This document shows positions 52,162-64,000 of a stretch of 64,000 nt of DNA, piece after piece. Numbering within the stretch: position 1 is the stretch's first letter; every line of letters starts with the position of its first letter. Both the position numbers and the translations under genes were made by a program. This stretch comes from an uncultured Roseovarius sp. (GTDB lineage: Bacteria; Pseudomonadota; Alphaproteobacteria; Rhodobacterales; Rhodobacteraceae), in NCBI GenBank assembly GCA_951812895.1, contig OX638333.1, positions 2,150,001-2,214,000 on the forward strand, in the 5' to 3' direction. The notes beneath the pieces are model-generated. The model was not told where the DNA came from. It made no database searches and saw only the letters and a list, made by a program, of their open reading frames with translations.

Positions 52162-52587
52162 TCAGACAGTTGTATGCCGCGCCCGAGAGCCGCGTTCGAT
52201 CGCGGCTGCATGCAAACGGTCGATGTTCAGCTCATAGCGAATTTCTTCCAGCAGGCGAAGCTCTGCCTCGTCCAATGCACCATCTGCTGCTGCTACATCA
52301 CAGGCGAGCGCATAGGCTGTTTCGAACAGGCGCTCCGGCAGATTGTCGCGGACAAGGCCAAACAGCGCATCAAGCCCTTCTTCAACGCTGAACAGATCAA
52401 ACACCGTTTGCGCCATGAGTTTCATCCGGTCGAGATCATACCCGGCGAACACCGGCAGGTTGTTCACAGCCGATTCGATTTTTACCAGTTCGGATGTTCT
52501 GATGGTTTCATCGGAGGCCGAGACCGCAATCATCACCGCAACAAGGCAATCTTGTGGGGTGAGGGGATGTGGAATCTGTTCGGTCAT
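52162..52587 (-). CDS. TerB-family protein
   Basis: 141 residues from ATG 52587. All-helical, with 'CLVAVMIAVSASDETIRTSE' and 'ALACDVAAADGALDEAELRL' carrying the repeated acidic D-G/E-T/A motifs typical of TerB and DjlA N-terminal domains (two-fold symmetric helical repeat with metal-binding aspartates). TerB proteins are linked to tellurite resistance and general stress, but the isolated gene here has no ter partners. It is divergent from lysS/lysK. Confidence 0.78.
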   Translation of the reverse strand: MTEQIPHPLTPQDCLVAVMIAVSASDETIRTSELVKIESAVNNLPVFAGYDLDRMKLMAQTVFDLFSVEEGLDALFGLVRDNLPERLFETAYALACDVAAADGALDEAELRLLEEIRYELNIDRLHAAAIERGSRARHTTV

Positions 52588-52710
52588 ACGGGCATCCTTC
52601 ATGATAGGTTATGTTGCGGTGCAGAATATTGACTGTTCCGCCCCTCGGCAATAGGAAGCGGACGACCTTACGCGCTTATGTCAAAGTGCGAGGAAACCCG
52701 GAGAAAACCA

Positions 52711-54285
52711 ATGTCTGAGCTGCGCGAAGCTGCCCTCACCTCGAAAGCCTGGCCTTTTGAAGAAGCCCGCAGCGTGCTTAAACGGTACGAAAAGACGCCA
52801 CCCGAAAAAGGGTACGTTCTGTTTGAGACGGGTTATGGCCCGTCAGGATTGCCGCATATCGGTACATTTGGCGAAGTGTCGCGCACCACGATGGTGATGC
52901 GCGCGTTTCAGATGATCAGCGACATTCCGACTAAGCTGGTGTGCTTTTCCGACGATCTGGACGGGATGCGCAAAGTGCCGGGCAACGTGCCCAATCCTGT
53001 GCTTTTGCAGCAGCATCTTCAGCGGCCACTGACATCTGTGCCTGATCCGTTCGGGACCCATTCCAGTTTTGGTGAACATAACAACGCGATGCTGCGCCGG
53101 TTTCTGGACACGTTTGGCTTTGAATACGAATTTATCAGCGCGACAGAATTTTACCGTTCGGGCCGGTTTGACACGGTGCTGCTGAGGGCGGCGGAACGGT
53201 ATGATGAGATCATGGCAGTGATGTTGAAATCTCTGCGCGAGGAACGGCAACAGACGTATTCGATATTCCTGCCAATTCACCCGGAAAGCGGGCGGGTGAT
53301 GTATGTGCCGATGAAGAATGTAAATGCCCAGGACGGTACGGTCACCTTTGACACCGAAGATGGTCAGGAAATGACCCTGCCGGTGACCGGCGGGAATGTA
53401 AAACTCCAATGGAAGCCGGATTTCGGTGCGCGTTGGGCGGCGTTGGGTGTTGATTTCGAGATGTATGGCAAAGACCATTCGACCAATACGCCGATCTACG
53501 ACAAGATTTGTCGAATCCTGGGACAGCGTGCGCCAGAGCATTTCACCTATGAATTGTTCCTCGATGAAAACGGTCAAAAGATTTCCAAGACCTCGGGCAA
53601 TGGCGTTTCGATTGACGAATGGCTGACCTATGCGGCCACGGAATCTCTTAGCTATTTCATGTATCAAAAGCCAAAGACCGCAAAGCGGATGCATTTCGAT
53701 GTGATCCCCAAAGCCGTGGATGAATATCATCAGCAGCTGCGTGCCTATCCGGATCAGGACGCGAAGGCGAAGGTGTCAAATCCGGTGTTTCATATCCACG
53801 GGGGTGAGGTTCCGCCCAGCAACATGGTTGTTCCGTTTGCAATGCTTTTGAATCTGGCGTCGGTTGCGTCTGCACAAGACAAGGAAACACTTTGGGGCTT
53901 TATTCAACGCTATGCGCCGGAGGCGAGCCCGGAAAGCCATCCTGATCTGGATGCGGCAGCTGGGTTTGCTGTGAAGTACTACGAGGACTTCGTCGCACCC
54001 CACAGGCAGTACCGTTTACCAACTGATCTGGAACGTGAAGCTTTGGAAGAGCTGCGCGAGAAACTTGCGGCTTGGGACGGGCCGGTGGATGCAGAGGAAT
54101 TGCAGAGCCTGGTGTTTGCTTGCGGACGCGAGTGTTTTGATCCGCTGCGGAATTGGTTCACAGCACTTTACGAGGTGCTTTTAGGCGCAAGTCAGGGCCC
54201 GCGCTTTGGCGGGTTTGTTGCACTGTACGGAGTGTCCGAGACAGTTGCGCTTATTGATGAAGCGCTTGCGGGTAACCTTGTCTAA
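52711..54285 (+). CDS. lysK: Class I lysyl-tRNA synthetase
   Basis: Charges tRNA-Lys with lysine. 524 residues from ATG 52711, which has GGAGAAAA upstream; an earlier in-frame start lacks support. The class I Rossmann core has the HIGH-type motif in '[20 protein letters not shown]' (HIGT near 49-52) and the KMSKS-type motif as KISKT (290-294). Class I LysRS is found in archaea and in Alphaproteobacteria, replacing the usual class II enzyme. It is followed by the half-site array and the XRE-cupin gene. Confidence 0.95.
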
Positions 54286-54304
54286 ATTTCGTTTATGTCG
54301 TGGG

Positions 54305-54388
54305 TTTTCACGCTGCGCTGCGGCGTGAAAAAAGGCTTGAAAATTTCACAGAATCGGAGCACCGTGAAATTCGGACAAGAATTTTCAC
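54305..54388 (+). promoter_or_regulatory. Five alternating TTTCAC/GTGAAA half-sites upstream of the XRE-cupin gene
   Basis: TTTCAC at 54306, GTGAAA at 54325, TTTCAC at 54344, GTGAAA at 54364 and TTTCAC at 54383: starts are 19, 19, 20 and 19 bp apart and orientation alternates. The first pair extends to TTTTCACGC/GCGTGAAAA, which can also fold as a hairpin near the lysK end. The second pair extends to AATTTCAC-N14-GTGAAATT. The array ends 15 bp before the regulator's start codon. Helical phasing (about two turns) suggests cooperative binding by a dimeric regulator, most likely the XRE-cupin protein itself. Confidence 0.65.
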
Positions 54389-54403
54389 GGAAGGCACTGC
54401 AAG

Positions 54404-54976
54404 GTGCAGCAAACTGACATCAGCACCAGTCGCACACTTGGCGTCGATCTGCGGGCATTACGCAAGTCGCGCGGTGTGACGCTTGCTGATCTGGCTGGAA
54501 GGCTTGGGCGGTCTGTTGGGTGGCTTAGCCAAGTGGAGCGTGACAAATCCGAACCTTCCATAGGAGATTTGCGCCAGATTGCAGCCGCTTTGGATGTTCC
54601 CTTGTCCCTGCTCTTTGGTCATTCAGCGGCACCAGCCGAAGAAGACGGGTTTGTGGTGCGGGCAGGCGCGCGACGTCAGATCGGTTCTGGCGAGGGCGGG
54701 CTGTACGAGGAACTGCTTTCGCCTGATCTGACTGATGACTTTGAAATGGTGCATTCCACCTTTGCGGCGAACAGCCGTGCAGGCGAGACCATTCAACGAC
54801 CGACACAGGAAGTTGGTTTTCTCATGTCCGGCAAGCTTGATCTGCAGATAGAGAACCAGACATTTACCATCCACCCGGGCGACAGTTTTCGAATTCGCGG
54901 CGAACCGCACGAGTGGTTAAATCCCTATGACGAACCGGCGGTTGCGATCTGGGTTATCGCTCCGCCGGTTTACTGA
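54404..54976 (+). CDS. XRE-family regulator with C-terminal cupin domain
   Basis: 190 residues from a GTG preceded by GGAAGG. The lambda-repressor-like HTH spans about 13-68 ('ALRKSRGVTLADLAGRLGRS', 'VGWLSQVERDKSEPSIGDLR'). The cupin barrel spans about 110-185 ('RPTQEVGFLMSGKLDLQIEN', 'IHPGDSFRIRGEPHEWLNP'). Such fusions (PuuR-like, or regulators of amino-acid and polyamine genes) sense a small ligand with the cupin. It is followed 6 bp later by a LysE-family exporter, which is its probable target. Confidence 0.92.
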   Translation: MQQTDISTSRTLGVDLRALRKSRGVTLADLAGRLGRSVGWLSQVERDKSEPSIGDLRQIAAALDVPLSLLFGHSAAPAEEDGFVVRAGARRQIGSGEGGLYEELLSPDLTDDFEMVHSTFAANSRAGETIQRPTQEVGFLMSGKLDLQIENQTFTIHPGDSFRIRGEPHEWLNPYDEPAVAIWVIAPPVY

Positions 54977-54982
54977 GGTGGA

Positions 54983-55603
54983 ATGATGAGTTGGGAAGCA
55001 TGGACCATATTCGCGCTGTTCTGGGCAGTGTTCGTGGTCACGCCGGGGCCGAACGCGGTCAATTGCATCACCAATGGCATGACAATCGGATTTAGACGGT
55101 CATTGCCCGGGGTTGCTGCGATTTTGACACAGGCTGCATTGTTTCTGGCCCTTTCCGCAGCCGGGATTACAGCCTTGATCGCTGCTTCGCCCACGGCATT
55201 TCAAATCATGAAACTAATCGGTGCAGGATTTCTGGTTTACATGGGAATCCGAGGCTGGATAACGGCCCGAAATCCGGTGCGGGTGCCCGCATCAAAAGGA
55301 TCAGTTTACTGGCGTGCGCTTATGATCGCGACGATCAATCCCAAAAGCGTGGCCGGATACCTGGCCGCGTTCAGCCAGTTTGTTCAGCCGGATGTTCCGA
55401 TTGGTCAACAAATGTGGGTGATCTTTCCCACCGCACTTACCCTGACATGCCTGAGCTACACAGGATTTACGGCAGTCGGAGCGGGAATTGGTAAGGCGGC
55501 GCTAGGTGCGGTGATCAATGTTTGGGTGCGCCGGGTGCTGGCGGCCTGTTTCATAATTTACGGTGTGCTGTTGGGCAGCGCAGCAACTCCGGGGAGGGCG
55601 TGA
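54983..55603 (+). CDS. LysE-family exporter
   Basis: 206 residues, about six helices. The family element is 'FVVTPGPNAVNCITNGMTIG', and 'IATINPKSVAGYLAAFSQFV' is the typical mid-loop. Two adjacent ATGs are possible (54983 and 54986) with GAGGTGG upstream. It lies in an operon with the XRE-cupin regulator, 6 bp after its stop. It is the second of three LysE-family genes in this window; the substrate is probably an amino acid or analogue. Confidence 0.9.
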   Translation: MMSWEAWTIFALFWAVFVVTPGPNAVNCITNGMTIGFRRSLPGVAAILTQAALFLALSAAGITALIAASPTAFQIMKLIGAGFLVYMGIRGWITARNPVRVPASKGSVYWRALMIATINPKSVAGYLAAFSQFVQPDVPIGQQMWVIFPTALTLTCLSYTGFTAVGAGIGKAALGAVINVWVRRVLAACFIIYGVLLGSAATPGRA

Positions 55604-55695
55604 GATGACCAACCATTTCGTTGGCTCGGAAATTGAGCGTTTCCACCCCGGAGTTAAGGGATTGCTACGGACAACTGAAGTTGGCGGAGGGCACG

Positions 55696-56076
55696 ATGCT
55701 TAAGGGAAGCTGCTTGTGCAGGGATATCACGTTTAGCGTTTCTGGTGAGTTGCGCGGAATGGCAAGCGCCTGCCACTGCGGGCAATGCCGCAAGCAGTCC
55801 GGACATCACTGGGCCTCTGGTAATGTCGGTGAAAACGGGATCACAATAGATGGCCCGGTCGCATGGTTCGAAGCTTCGGCAGTGGCCAAGCGTGGATTTT
55901 GCGCACGCTGCGGATCGTTCCTGTTCTGGAAAGCGCATGACGAGGACCAGATCAGCTTTGCTCTGGGTGCGTTGGATGAAGAGGCTGGTATCCGGTTGCA
56001 GCGGCATATTTTCGTCGCGGACAAGGGTGCATATTACGAGATATCAGATGACCTGCCAAAATTGGAGCGGTCGTAA
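55696..56076 (+). CDS. GFA-family (CENP-V/glutathione-dependent formaldehyde-activating) protein
   Basis: About 126 residues from ATG 55696, preceded by GGAGG; the longer open frame to 55621 is not supported. Zinc ligands are in 'GSCLCRDITFSVSG' (C-x-C), 'ASACHCGQCRKQSGHHW' (C-x-C-x-x-C) and 'AKRGFCARCGSFLFWKA' (C-x-x-C). The fold is that of the GFA/CENP-V family. Actual catalysis is doubtful for many members. Its stop overlaps the next gene's start by one base. Confidence 0.88.
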   Translation: MLKGSCLCRDITFSVSGELRGMASACHCGQCRKQSGHHWASGNVGENGITIDGPVAWFEASAVAKRGFCARCGSFLFWKAHDEDQISFALGALDEEAGIRLQRHIFVADKGAYYEISDDLPKLERS

Positions 56077-56699
56077 TGTGGGACGTTCTGACAGGGTTTG
56101 ACCCGGCAGTGCTGGCCGCCTTTATCGGCGCGGGGTTACTTCTTAACCTGACGCCGGGTGCCGATTTTGTCTTTGTTTCGGCAAGCGGCATTGGGGGTGG
56201 GCCCCGCGTTGGGATGGCCGCAGCTTTGGGAGTTAATATCGGAGTGGCGCTGCATGTGGTGTTGGCGGCGGCCGGGCTATCCGCGCTGATATTGGCGTGG
56301 CCTCTGGCCTATGATCTGATCCGCTATGCGGGGGCGGCCTATCTTGTGTTCCTGGCGGTACAGGCCTGGAGGTCCAGTGGAGAGCTGGAAGAGGCACGCG
56401 CCGCTTCAAGCATGGCACGTGCGGTGCGGCGCGGGTTTGTGACAAACGTCCTGAACCCCAAGACCGCGCTGTTTATCTTTGCGTTCATTCCGCAATTCAC
56501 TGACCCAACTTTGGGTTCCATTGGTCTGCAAATCCTAATCCTCGGCGCGATCTTTCTGGTGTTCGGCGGGATGTTTTCGATGAGCCTTGGCGCTGCTGCC
56601 GGATATTTCTCTCATATTTTGCGGGCACGTACTCGGCTTCTGAATCGCATATCTGCGGTGATGTTCGGCGGGTTGGCCGCGCGGTTGGTTTGGGAATGA
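56076..56699 (+). CDS. LysE-family exporter
   Basis: 207 residues with about six helices. The signature is 'LLLNLTPGADFVFVSASGIG', and 'RGFVTNVLNPKTALFIFAFI' with 'PQFTDPTLGS' is the classic LysE/RhtB middle segment. The ATG shares a base with the GFA stop (TAATG), so translation is coupled. With the exporter at 54983 it may form one four-gene unit under the XRE-cupin regulator. Confidence 0.9.
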   Translation: MWDVLTGFDPAVLAAFIGAGLLLNLTPGADFVFVSASGIGGGPRVGMAAALGVNIGVALHVVLAAAGLSALILAWPLAYDLIRYAGAAYLVFLAVQAWRSSGELEEARAASSMARAVRRGFVTNVLNPKTALFIFAFIPQFTDPTLGSIGLQILILGAIFLVFGGMFSMSLGAAAGYFSHILRARTRLLNRISAVMFGGLAARLVWE

Positions 56700-56856
56700 A
56701 CAAATGAAACGCCGCAGAACGATTGCAGTTAAAACGACACGCCAGCGGACTGGTCCGAAAGCAGGCGCACACATCTTCACTGCGGACAGAGGTGACTATT
56801 TTGAGATCTCCTGTACCGCACCACAATTTGCACACTACGAGTAAGGGAATAAACTC

Positions 56857-59304
56857 ATGGCTGATCTGCCAAGCAAAGCAAAAGTTGTCATCATCGGGGG
56901 TGGTGTTGTTGGCTGTTCCTCGCTGTATCATCTGGCGAAAAAAGGCTGGACCGATTGTGTTCTGCTGGAAAAGAACGAGCTGACCGCGGGTAGCACGTGG
57001 CACGCCGCGGGCAATGTGCCGACCTTTTCGACCAGCTGGGGCATCATGAATATCCAGCGCTATTCGACCGAGCTGTACAGCGGCTTGGCCGAAGAGGTCG
57101 ACTATCCAATGAACTATCATCAGTCCGGGTCGATCCGTTTGGCGCATACCAAGGAGCGGGTACAGGAATTTGAACGCGCAATGTCGATGGGTAAATACCA
57201 AGGCATCGAGATGGAGATGTGGACGCCGGAGCAGGCGAAAGAGCGGTATCCGTTTCTGGAAACGCACGATCTGGAAGGTGTGCTGTATGATCCTTCCGAC
57301 GGAGACATTGACCCCGCACAGGTTACGCAGGCACTGGCTAAAGGTGCCCGTGACATGGGCGCCAAGATCGTTCGATTCTGTCCGGTTACAGATGTGGCCC
57401 AGAAAGAAGATAAAAGCTGGATCGTTCATACTGACAAAGGCGATATTGAATGTGAATTTGTGGTCAACGCCGCGGGCTATTATGCACAGCGTGTCGGTGA
57501 GATGTTCAAACCCTACGGTGGACGCACTGTGCCGATGATGGTGATGAGTCACCAATATCTTCTGACTGAGCAAATCCCCGAAGTTGAAGCATGGAGCAAG
57601 GAGCATGGTGGTAAGCTGCCTCTGATCCGCGATGTGGATGTGTCCTATTACCTGCGGCAGGAAAAGAACGGCTATAACCTTGGCCCATATGAACCGAATT
57701 GCAAAGGTGAATGGACCGAAAGCGGCGAAGCCATTCCGCATGATTTCAGCTTCCAGCTCTGGCAGGAAGATCTGGACCGGATCGAGGATATCGTAACGGA
57801 TGCGATGGAGCGGGTGCCGCTGATGGCAGAAGCTGGTGTGTCGAGCGTGATCAACGGACCAATCCCCTATGCGCCGGATGGCTTGCCGCTGATCGGGCCC
57901 ATGCCGGGCGTCGAAAACGCGTTTGAGAACTGTGTCTTTACCTTCGGGATCGCGCAAGGTGGTGGCGCCGGCAAGGTTCTGGCTGAGTGGATCATCGATG
58001 GACATACCGAATGGGATATGTGGGCGGTGGATCCGCGGCGTTACACCGATTACACCGATCACGATTACTGTGTGGCCAAAGGTATGGAGGTATATGGCAA
58101 CGAATACGCCATGCACTTCCCGCAACATGAATGGCCCGCCGCACGCAACAAAAAGCTGTCGCCGGTGCATGACCGGATCATTGCACAGGGTGGCGTGATG
58201 GGCGCCTATAACGGTTGGGAGCGGGCCAACTGGTTTGCGCAGCCGGGCGATGATACGTCCGAGGAAAGTACGCATACCTGGGGACGTTCGGGCCCATGGG
58301 AGCAGCGGGTCAAGGAAGAATGCGAAGCGGTTCGGGATCACTGCGGTGTTCTGGATCTGCCGGGCTTTACACGTCTCTGGCTGCAGGGAGAAGGCGCGGA
58401 TGAATGGCTGCGCGGGTTCTGTACTGGTGGCATCCCCAAAGTTGGGCGGATGAACCTGATCTATGTCTCTGACAAGCGCGGGCGTATCCTGACCGAGATG
58501 TCGTGTATCCGGATTGCTGAAAACAACTTTGTTCTGATCACAGCTGCAACCGCGCAGTGGCACGACGGAGAGCTGGTGCGCCGTTCGGTGCCTGACACAG
58601 TGACCGTGCGTGAGACGACGACCGAACGTGATTCCCTGATTGTTACAGGTCCGAAGTCGCGTGAAATCCTGTCTGGCCTCACCGATGCGGATCTGGAACA
58701 GGGGTGGCTGACCCACCAGTTTGCAACAGTGGCTGGTCAGAAGGCGTTTTTGCTCCGCGTGTCATTTGCCGGTGAACTGGGTTGGGAGGTGCATGTCGAA
58801 GGTGATGCGATGGTTCCGGTCTATGACGCGATCATTGCAGCCGGTGCCAAACCCTTTGGGATGTATGCTCTGAACAGCCTGCGGATCGAAAAGGGCTATC
58901 GCGCGTGGAAAGGTGATCTTTCAACCGATTACAGCCTGCTTGAAGGTGGTCTTGGGCGTTTCGTGAAGTTGGACAAGCCGTATGATTTTGTCGGCAAGGC
59001 GGCCATTCAGAGCGAGATGCAGCAAGGCGTCAAAAAAGGGTTTGTCACCCTGATCGTTGACGCCGGCGATGCCGATGCGCCTTACATGTCCACCATTTGG
59101 CATGACGGTCAGGTTGTAGGTGAAACCACGTCCGGTGCCTGGGGTTACCGGGTGAATGCCTCGATCGCACTTGGCATGGTGCGGGCCGATCTTGCGGTGC
59201 CGGGTACAGAGCTGGAAGTGGAGATTTACGGAGAGCGGTGCAAAGCCGTTGTTCAACCGGATCAGCCGCTGTGGGACCCAGAAAACGAACGGCTGAGAGC
59301 CTAA
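56857..59304 (+). CDS. FAD-dependent dimethylglycine/sarcosine-dehydrogenase-like protein (DAO + GcvT)
   Basis: 815 residues, full length. The N-terminal DAO domain (about 8-370) carries the FAD dinucleotide motif 'VVIIGGGVVGCSSLYHL' and 'STWHAAGNVPTFSTSWGI', where the histidine after TW is the place of covalent FAD attachment in dimethylglycine dehydrogenase. A FAO-like linker and a GcvT/aminomethyltransferase domain follow (about 430-815, 'VLDLPGFTRLWLQGEGADEW', 'LRVSFAGELGWEVHVEG'), which would pass the one-carbon unit to tetrahydrofolate. It probably oxidises N-methyl groups of dimethylglycine, sarcosine or a similar compound. A strong terminator follows. Confidence 0.9.
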   Translation: MADLPSKAKVVIIGGGVVGCSSLYHLAKKGWTDCVLLEKNELTAGSTWHAAGNVPTFSTSWGIMNIQRYSTELYSGLAEEVDYPMNYHQSGSIRLAHTKERVQEFERAMSMGKYQGIEMEMWTPEQAKERYPFLETHDLEGVLYDPSDGDIDPAQVTQALAKGARDMGAKIVRFCPVTDVAQKEDKSWIVHTDKGDIECEFVVNAAGYYAQRVGEMFKPYGGRTVPMMVMSHQYLLTEQIPEVEAWSKEHGGKLPLIRDVDVSYYLRQEKNGYNLGPYEPNCKGEWTESGEAIPHDFSFQLWQEDLDRIEDIVTDAMERVPLMAEAGVSSVINGPIPYAPDGLPLIGPMPGVENAFENCVFTFGIAQGGGAGKVLAEWIIDGHTEWDMWAVDPRRYTDYTDHDYCVAKGMEVYGNEYAMHFPQHEWPAARNKKLSPVHDRIIAQGGVMGAYNGWERANWFAQPGDDTSEESTHTWGRSGPWEQRVKEECEAVRDHCGVLDLPGFTRLWLQGEGADEWLRGFCTGGIPKVGRMNLIYVSDKRGRILTEMSCIRIAENNFVLITAATAQWHDGELVRRSVPDTVTVRETTTERDSLIVTGPKSREILSGLTDADLEQGWLTHQFATVAGQKAFLLRVSFAGELGWEVHVEGDAMVPVYDAIIAAGAKPFGMYALNSLRIEKGYRAWKGDLSTDYSLLEGGLGRFVKLDKPYDFVGKAAIQSEMQQGVKKGFVTLIVDAGDADAPYMSTIWHDGQVVGETTSGAWGYRVNASIALGMVRADLAVPGTELEVEIYGERCKAVVQPDQPLWDPENERLRA

Positions 59305-63067: not shown

Positions 63068-64000
63068 ATGGGCACTCTTCCCCAAAAGGCGCGGGTGGTT
63101 ATTATTGGCGGTGGCGTTGTGGGCTGTTCTGTAGCCTATCATCTGGCCAAGCTGGGCTGGACCGATGTGGTTTTGCTCGAACGAAAGCAGCTTACAAGTG
63201 GCACGACCTGGCATGCCGCTGGTTTGATCGGGCAGCTGCGCGCCACATCTAACATGACCAAGCTGGCGCGCTATTCGGCCGAGCTTTACCTGGGGCTTGA
63301 GGCAGAGACCGGTGTGGCAACGGGTATGCGGCAGGGCGGTTCCGTTTCAGTCGCACTTACCGATGAACGGCGTGAAGAACTGTATCGCCAGGCGGCCATG
63401 GCACGCGCTTTTGGCGTTCCTGTGGAAGAGCTGAGCCCGAAGGAAGTAAAAGAGCGTTACGAGCATATCAACCTGGATGGTGTCACAGGTGGGGTCTGGT
63501 TGCCTACGGATGGACAAGCTGATCCTGCGAACATCGCGTTGGCATTGGCCAAGGGTGCACGGCAAAACGGTGCGCTGGTCAAAGAGCGCATCAAGGTTAC
63601 CGGGATCTCCAGAAATGGCCGCCGTGTGACCGGGGTCGACTGGGCCAGAGACGATGGCAAGGACCAAGGCCATATCGAGGCGGATATGATCGTGAACTGC
63701 GCCGGTATGTGGGGCCACGAAGTGGGCCGGATGGCAGGCGCGAATGTACCGCTACATGCCTGCGAGCACTTTTACATCGTGACCGAAGCTATTTCCGGTC
63801 TGACCCAGATGCCGGTGCTGCGTGTTCCGGATGAATGTGCCTACTACAAGGAAGATGCAGGGAAATTCCTGCTTGGCGCGTTTGAGCCGCATTCGAAACC
63901 CTGGGGGATGAATGGCATTCCGGATAGTTTCGAATTCGATCAGCTGCCGGAAGATTTCGATCACTTTGAGCCGATACTGGAAGCAGCGTGTGAGCGGTTG
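63068..64000 (+). CDS. FAD-dependent dimethylglycine/sarcosine-dehydrogenase-like protein, 5' part
   Basis: Open to the right edge; at least 311 residues are present. The start ATG follows CCGGAG. The N-terminus 'VVIIGGGVVGCSVAYHLAKL' and 'GTTWHAAGLIGQLRATSNMT' match the paralogue at 56857 closely, with the same TWHA covalent-flavin element. 'GGVWLPTDGQADPANIALAL' is the DAO-domain core. The C-terminal GcvT part would lie beyond the window. It is the second copy in the same cluster, and the shared layout suggests tandem duplication with different N-methyl substrates. Confidence 0.88.
   Translation, partial: MGTLPQKARVVIIGGGVVGCSVAYHLAKLGWTDVVLLERKQLTSGTTWHAAGLIGQLRATSNMTKLARYSAELYLGLEAETGVATGMRQGGSVSVALTDERREELYRQAAMARAFGVPVEELSPKEVKERYEHINLDGVTGGVWLPTDGQADPANIALALAKGARQNGALVKERIKVTGISRNGRRVTGVDWARDDGKDQGHIEADMIVNCAGMWGHEVGRMAGANVPLHACEHFYIVTEAISGLTQMPVLRVPDECAYYKEDAGKFLLGAFEPHSKPWGMNGIPDSFEFDQLPEDFDHFEPILEAACERL

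Follow-up and report, generated by a model that had tools for sequence, protein, structure and literature searches.

Two 25-bp palindromes lie immediately upstream of an XRE-cupin regulator gene in the window, i.e., the whole 64-kb stretch of DNA that was analysed, and they very probably serve a demethylase operon as its double autorepressor operator, at which the XRE-cupin protein would bind and occlude the promoter. The array formed by these palindromes is real, conserved and functional-looking as far as sequence comparison can tell, and it is ordinary in kind. Local repressors of the XRE-cupin type are already known as a kind of regulator; the wide and doubled operator is this system's own trait. 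The palindromes, their conservation, their link to the regulator family and the operon were all read from sequence comparison.

Half-site array and its conservation

Five alternating half-sites were found at 54306 (TTTCAC), 54325 (GTGAAA), 54344 (TTTCAC), 54364 (GTGAAA) and 54383 (TTTCAC), with start-to-start steps of 19, 19, 20 and 19 bp, exactly as the first-pass annotation had described. When steps of 18–21 bp were allowed, this was the single alternating five-site chain in the whole window. A chance origin is unlikely, as had also been claimed, because 100 random sequences, generated with a first-order Markov model based on the window, contained no chain of at least three half-sites. The exact palindrome GTGAAA-N13-TTTCAC occurred twice in the window, both copies being within the array, and allowing up to one mismatch gave three matches compared with 0.22 expected. 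The interval annotated earlier ended at 54403 and thus ran up to the start of the XRE-cupin gene; the last half-site stops at 54388. The DNA elements of the array are as follows.

54306–54331, no strand: inverted repeat consisting of an extra half-site TTTCAC (54306–54311) and an imperfect 12-bp stem with the first O1 half-site
54325–54349, no strand: candidate operator O1, exact palindrome GTGAAA-N13-TTTCAC; half-site spacing 19 in all 80 upstream regions that have the array
54364–54388, no strand: candidate operator O2, exact palindrome GTGAAA-N13-TTTCAC; half-site spacing 19 in 78 of 80

A scan of genome contigs found 335 relatives, of which the best 80 were used (L005–L084), and a class-wide draw of 289 genomes provided 29 loci from other genomes (L085–L113), three of them from the same family. 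The 84 upstream regions of the window, the 80 relatives and the three family genomes were compared by fitting GTGAAA/TTTCAC/GTGAAA/TTTCAC, with 18–20 bp inside pairs and 18–22 bp between pairs. The four-half-site array, comprising two palindromes, was present in 80 of the 84 regions, where no more than 4 of its 24 positions were mismatched; since relatives share descent, such counts are non-independent trials. The mismatches numbered 0 in 33 regions, 1 in 25, 2 in 19, 3 in two, 4 in one and 6–8 in four, while the randomised control (80 regions, two each of 40) gave 8–12. Absence of the periodicity from orthologous upstream regions had been named as the observation that would speak against an operator, and the periodicity was instead retained.

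The 80 good arrays were spaced 19/20/19 in 60 cases, 19/21/19 in nine and 19/22/19 in six, with the rarer classes being 19/19/19 (three), 19/20/20 (one) and 19/21/18 (one). Thus, the gap between the palindromes varied from 19 to 22 bp and the internal spacing was nearly fixed, which indicates that the conserved unit is a 25-bp palindrome, present twice. Four exceptions (L013, L022, L046 and L051) carried two palindromes that were interleaved with a 12-bp offset and not in tandem. These fitted the interleaved layout, which was defined after L051 had been seen, with 4, 3, 1 and 0 mismatches, respectively; among 1000 randomised regions, one had 5 mismatches and the rest at least 7. A scan of 40 genomes of the genus gave a match in 37 and 34 strong matches besides the window's own, 29 of which were used as loci, although several of these genomes are apparently identical to genomes among the 80 relatives. 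At most 2 mismatches were found in 26 of the 29 loci; L138, L150 and L152 had 4, 5 and 8, respectively, and the O1 fit was poor in the latter two.

The first half-site behaved differently from sites 2–5, which are conserved in relatives. None of the 112 relatives (79 array-bearing, four interleaved and 29 genus loci, some genomes being counted twice) had TTTCAC with 0–1 mismatch at a distance of 19 or 20 bp before the first conserved half-site. A near-TTTCAC with at most one mismatch occurred at 17, 18, 21 or 22 bp in 11 of the 79 other array-bearing regions and, among the 29 genus loci, only in L147 at 22 bp; the four interleaved regions had none at 17–22 bp. Site 1 is therefore apparently a lineage-specific addition or a chance occurrence outside the conserved element, and the view of the five half-sites as one array holds for the last four. 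The suggestion that operator and lysK terminator may be the same DNA was not sustained, since site 1 and its hairpin are unconserved. A and not T comes after the stem that site 1 forms with O1, and no intrinsic terminator (a G+C-rich stem followed by a T-run) was found in 54200–54480. By tblastn, lysK was absent from the flanks of 109 relatives, searched up to 3000 bp in L005–L084 and up to 1500 bp in L085–L113. The terminator reading was accordingly rejected.

Regulator, operon and known systems

The genes downstream of the array were assigned as follows.

54404–54976, plus strand: XRE-cupin transcriptional regulator, presumed ligand-responsive autorepressor (Pfam HTH_31, HTH_3, Cupin_2)
54983–55603, plus strand: LysE-family exporter, optional operon member (Pfam LysE); next gene after that of the regulator in 55 of 83 loci
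55696–56076, plus strand: GFA-family protein, optional member (Pfam GFA); in 71 of 83 loci
56076–56699, plus strand: second LysE-family exporter, optional member (Pfam LysE); in 15 of 83 loci
56857–59304, plus strand: dimethylglycine-dehydrogenase (DMGDH)-like protein, constant partner and presumed main target (Pfam DAO + FAO_M + GCV_T + GCV_T_C)

The start codon of the GFA gene at 55696 was our choice, the Pfam search having begun at 55684. The regulator has an N-terminal XRE-type HTH (HTH_31, 49.7 bits with a cut-off of 27; HTH_3, 42 bits with a cut-off of 23) and a C-terminal cupin domain (Cupin_2, 42.5 bits with a cut-off of 27.2). Its AlphaFold2 model had a pLDDT of 85.7, and the top Foldseek match was 1y9q, an HTH_3 regulator of Vibrio cholerae. 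As judged by sequence only, a palindromic site adjoins the regulator's own gene, in the manner of XRE-cupin regulators.

In 81 of 83 loci, the DMGDH-like gene was present further downstream, on the strand of the regulator gene, and both misses were explained: in L009 the gene lies beyond the 2600-bp cut, and L048 ends before it. In L169, it comes directly after the regulator. The protein showed full-length similarity to dimethylglycine dehydrogenase (4pab, 5l46), scoring 573 bits over residues 6–813 against 4pab, which we take to be the rat enzyme, and its DAO + FAO_M + GCV_T + GCV_T_C architecture is that of dimethylglycine dehydrogenase. The own genome contains 17 full-length DMGDH-like DAO-GcvT genes, including that of the operon. 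Another of the 17, at 2213068–2215512 (window position 63068 to beyond the end), is cut by the window end. The first-pass annotation had described a LysE exporter operon; as LysE is an optional member and the DMGDH-like gene a constant one, LysE was rejected as the main target.

Several neighbouring frames were also observed. A short frame after the second LysE gene, 56764–56844, resembles the C terminus of the GFA protein (GAHIFTADRGDYFEIS compared with RHIFVADKGAYYEIS) and has probably remained from a further copy of the GFA gene. On the minus strand, the translations between 47557 and 52033 suggest an ABC transporter of the amino-acid type and a LysE-like protein; these frames lie beyond a TerB-like gene (52162–52602, profile match), on the far side of lysK.

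The system was compared with known regulators. The available part of PMC7901475 describes XRE-cupin regulators of P. aeruginosa (PsdR, PauR, ErfA and others) as local repressors with palindromic sites beside their own genes and suspected autoregulation. The present regulator resembles them in its HTH and cupin domains, in the palindrome by its own gene and in its presumed local metabolic targets. The PsdR site, given as TTAAG-N5-CTTAA in the part of PMC10965056 available, is narrower, whereas the half-sites here are 19–20 bp apart and the two palindromes cover the putative promoter. According to the accessible text of PMC12724383, DbuR of Pseudomonas putida is an XRE-cupin repressor whose footprint includes a predicted −10 element and whose neighbouring operon encodes an amino-acid oxidase. 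The present regulator is likewise of the XRE-cupin type with a putative −10 overlapped, but DbuR has one 20-bp palindrome before a divergent operon, while here two 25-bp palindromes precede the regulator itself. Because the half-sites are wider apart than those of the PsdR and DbuR sites, occupancy by one dimer per palindrome is not assured. An XRE survey that uses autoregulatory palindromes has spacers of about 12–14 bp in its complex models (available part of PMC12565409), and these would suit the N13 of the palindrome. The accessible portion of the work on NceR (PMC10470515) had no bearing on site geometry. No published form of the operator was recognised in the literature as far as its text was available, and one may be listed in the supplements to PMC12565409 or PMC7901475 (figure S1).

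The best NCBIfam match of the regulator was PuuR (PRK09943.1; residues 11–177), with 54.8 bits against a family cut-off of 211, and a canonical PuuR identity was thus rejected. Unlike that match, the regulator is followed by LysE, GFA and DMGDH-like genes. R. pomeroyi SPO3400 and SPO3396 are named DMG and sarcosine dehydrogenase, respectively, in the part of PMC4744692 available.

The dyad in the own genome and in divergent homologues

The shorter pattern TGAAA-N13-TTTCA occurred at 8 places in the own genome compared with 1 for the reversed control. Six of them were outside the array, and only the one at 353835, inside an ABC-ATPase-like reading frame, fitted the stricter pattern exactly. One-mismatch operator sites outnumbered the reversed-pattern control (14 and 21 vs 2 and 2). 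Because of this excess, control by the regulator may not be strictly local, and a wider regulon in the own genome is possible.

Outside the family, the 26 best-scoring class-wide homologues (L088–L113) were considered. A perfect TGAAA-N13/14-TTTCA dyad was located upstream of 16 of these 26 XRE-cupin genes (spacing 19 in seven and 20 in nine), several of the sixteen being common to one family, and was absent in the other 10. At the neighbouring spacings of 17, 18 and 21, none of the 26 had a perfect dyad, and among 1040 randomised regions spacing 19 was seen in five and spacing 20 in none. Across the phylum, 299 drawn genomes added 24 further loci (L165–L188), 14 with the dyad (12 at spacing 19 and two at 20) and 10 without it; four of the 14 (L165–L168) are same-family orthologues. 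Two dyads 39 bp apart, the layout of the window, were present in six of eight loci of family f160. In L181 and L183, which belong to another class, two dyads of spacing 20 have a 24-bp offset. The translation of a frame downstream of the related XRE-cupin gene in L181 reads like glutamine synthetase.

The recognition helix was compared among 46 non-orthologous loci, with L165–L168 left out. Where the S of the recognition helix is preceded by R or K, the dyad was present in 19 of 24 cases, compared with 7 of 22 for the other regulators, two of which lack a recognisable helix motif (Fisher p 0.0025). When one locus per family and class was counted, the association was 8 of 11 vs 4 of 17 (p 0.019); the helix classes were chosen after the data had been seen, and both comparisons are exploratory. 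The dyad was lacking despite the same helix type in L089, L090, L094, L182 and L186. Taken at the level of sequence, the dyad follows the XRE-cupin regulator family.

Putative promoter, alternative readings and implications

Among the 60 arrays with a 20-bp gap, two pairs of columns stood out from the rest of the sequence outside the half-sites: TT at +12/+13, with either T in 58 of 60, and CA at +35/+36, with 55 and 58 of 60. The conserved pair reads TTGGAA-N17-CATCGT, and its counterparts in the window are as follows.

54337–54342, plus strand: putative −35 element TTGAAA inside O1; first two T in 58 of 60 each
54360–54365, plus strand: putative −10 element CACCGT overlapping the left O2 half-site, 17 nt after the −35; C in 55, A in 58 and T in 60 of 60, this T being a half-site base

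A strict consensus promoter scan reported no promoter. Nothing in the left flank of O1 corresponds to the CA column, a point in favour of a promoter element; the column could be an operator flank instead. The best −10-like hexamer was found at spacers of 16 (3 of 3), 17 (60 of 61), 18 (7 of 10) and 19 (5 of 6) for gaps of 19, 20, 21 and 22, respectively, an agreement that comes in part from the scoring itself, in which the final T, a half-site base, is rewarded. Spacers of 16–19 are tolerated by sigma-70 promoters. Separation of promoter and operator by the varying gap failed, as the CA column shifts together with O2, an outcome to which the score is biased. With the −35-like member of the pair inside O1 and the −10-like one at the O2 edge, these columns would place the promoter at O1/O2, and promoter occlusion is the model that fits best. 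We infer that the XRE-cupin protein would bind each 25-bp palindrome, most simply as a dimer. With O1 enclosing the −35 and O2 overlapping the −10 and the probable start point, the bound protein would exclude RNA polymerase and repress the regulator gene, the optional LysE and GFA genes and the DMGDH-like demethylase gene. A small amine or N-methyl amino acid in the cupin domain, which is our guess for the inducer, would presumably release the protein.

The first-pass annotation had proposed a regular polymeric operator, i.e., a lattice of five half-sites on which the regulator might multimerise or which might set a graded response. The near-equal steps in the window agree with such a lattice, a succession of half-sites could allow cooperativity, and the f160 palindromes keep their 39-bp offset in all six loci that have both. 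However, site 1 has no counterpart at its spacing in the relatives, four relatives have the interleaved order, and the gap between palindromes varies while the internal one hardly does, so that neighbouring sites would differ in helical phase. A five-site lattice is therefore very unlikely, and multimerisation of the regulator is not indicated; what stands from that proposal is an operator of the XRE-cupin gene, as the four-site array suggests. It is also very improbable that another regulator binds the palindromes and the XRE-cupin gene is simply its target. Binding by the XRE-cupin protein is predicted from sequence, and, as the regulator is encoded in one operon with its presumed targets, synteny by itself does not tell them apart. 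Nevertheless, the dyad accompanies the regulator gene across large divergence and in other gene contexts. It goes with a divergent GcvT-like match upstream (29% identity) in L099 and L101 and with the glutamine-synthetase-like frame downstream in L181; L094, also divergent, is without it. The exploratory correlation with the recognition helix likewise speaks against another regulator.

Alternatively, the inverted repeats may act as RNA hairpins (attenuator or terminator) and not as DNA sites. The strand folds better than its shuffles (z −2.83, with 2 of 200 as good), the predicted fold has one stem in O2 and another, of 12 pairs, at the extra half-site, and the core TGAAA/TTTCA columns are nearly invariant, which gives no argument against pairing. 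However, the outer half-site bases were unpaired in 9 (O1) and 11 (O2) of 78 relatives. The outer pairs were G-C in 47, G-T in 16, A-C in seven, A-T in six and C-C in two for O1, and G-C in 57, A-C in 11, G-T in eight and A-T in two for O2. The next two A/T columns paired in 30 and 23 of 78 (O1) and in 31 and 36 of 78 (O2). Base pairing thus does not seem to be a conserved trait of the palindromes. Moreover, Rfam gave no match up to E 1, no terminator was reported at the array, and O1 would be untranscribed from the putative promoter. An RNA element is accordingly extremely improbable, and it was rejected in favour of the double autorepressor operator.

A more general reading, possible but rather doubtful at present, is that TGAAA-N13/14-TTTCA marks a large proteobacterial XRE-cupin subfamily of unusually wide geometry. 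Two dimers or a tetramer would clamp the promoter between and within the sites, and the tandem (38–41 bp offset) and interleaved (12 bp) layouts would be interchangeable.

The proposed double autorepressor operator provides a testable DNA-binding code for a lineage of regulators that is present in many Rhodobacteraceae, and it links this lineage to a demethylase-type operon. The operator may be used to find orthologues of the regulator, and, combined with a reporter, it could lead to the inducer and thereby to the assignment of one DMGDH-like enzyme among the many in these genomes. The attribution of the operon also shifts from lysine export to demethylation.
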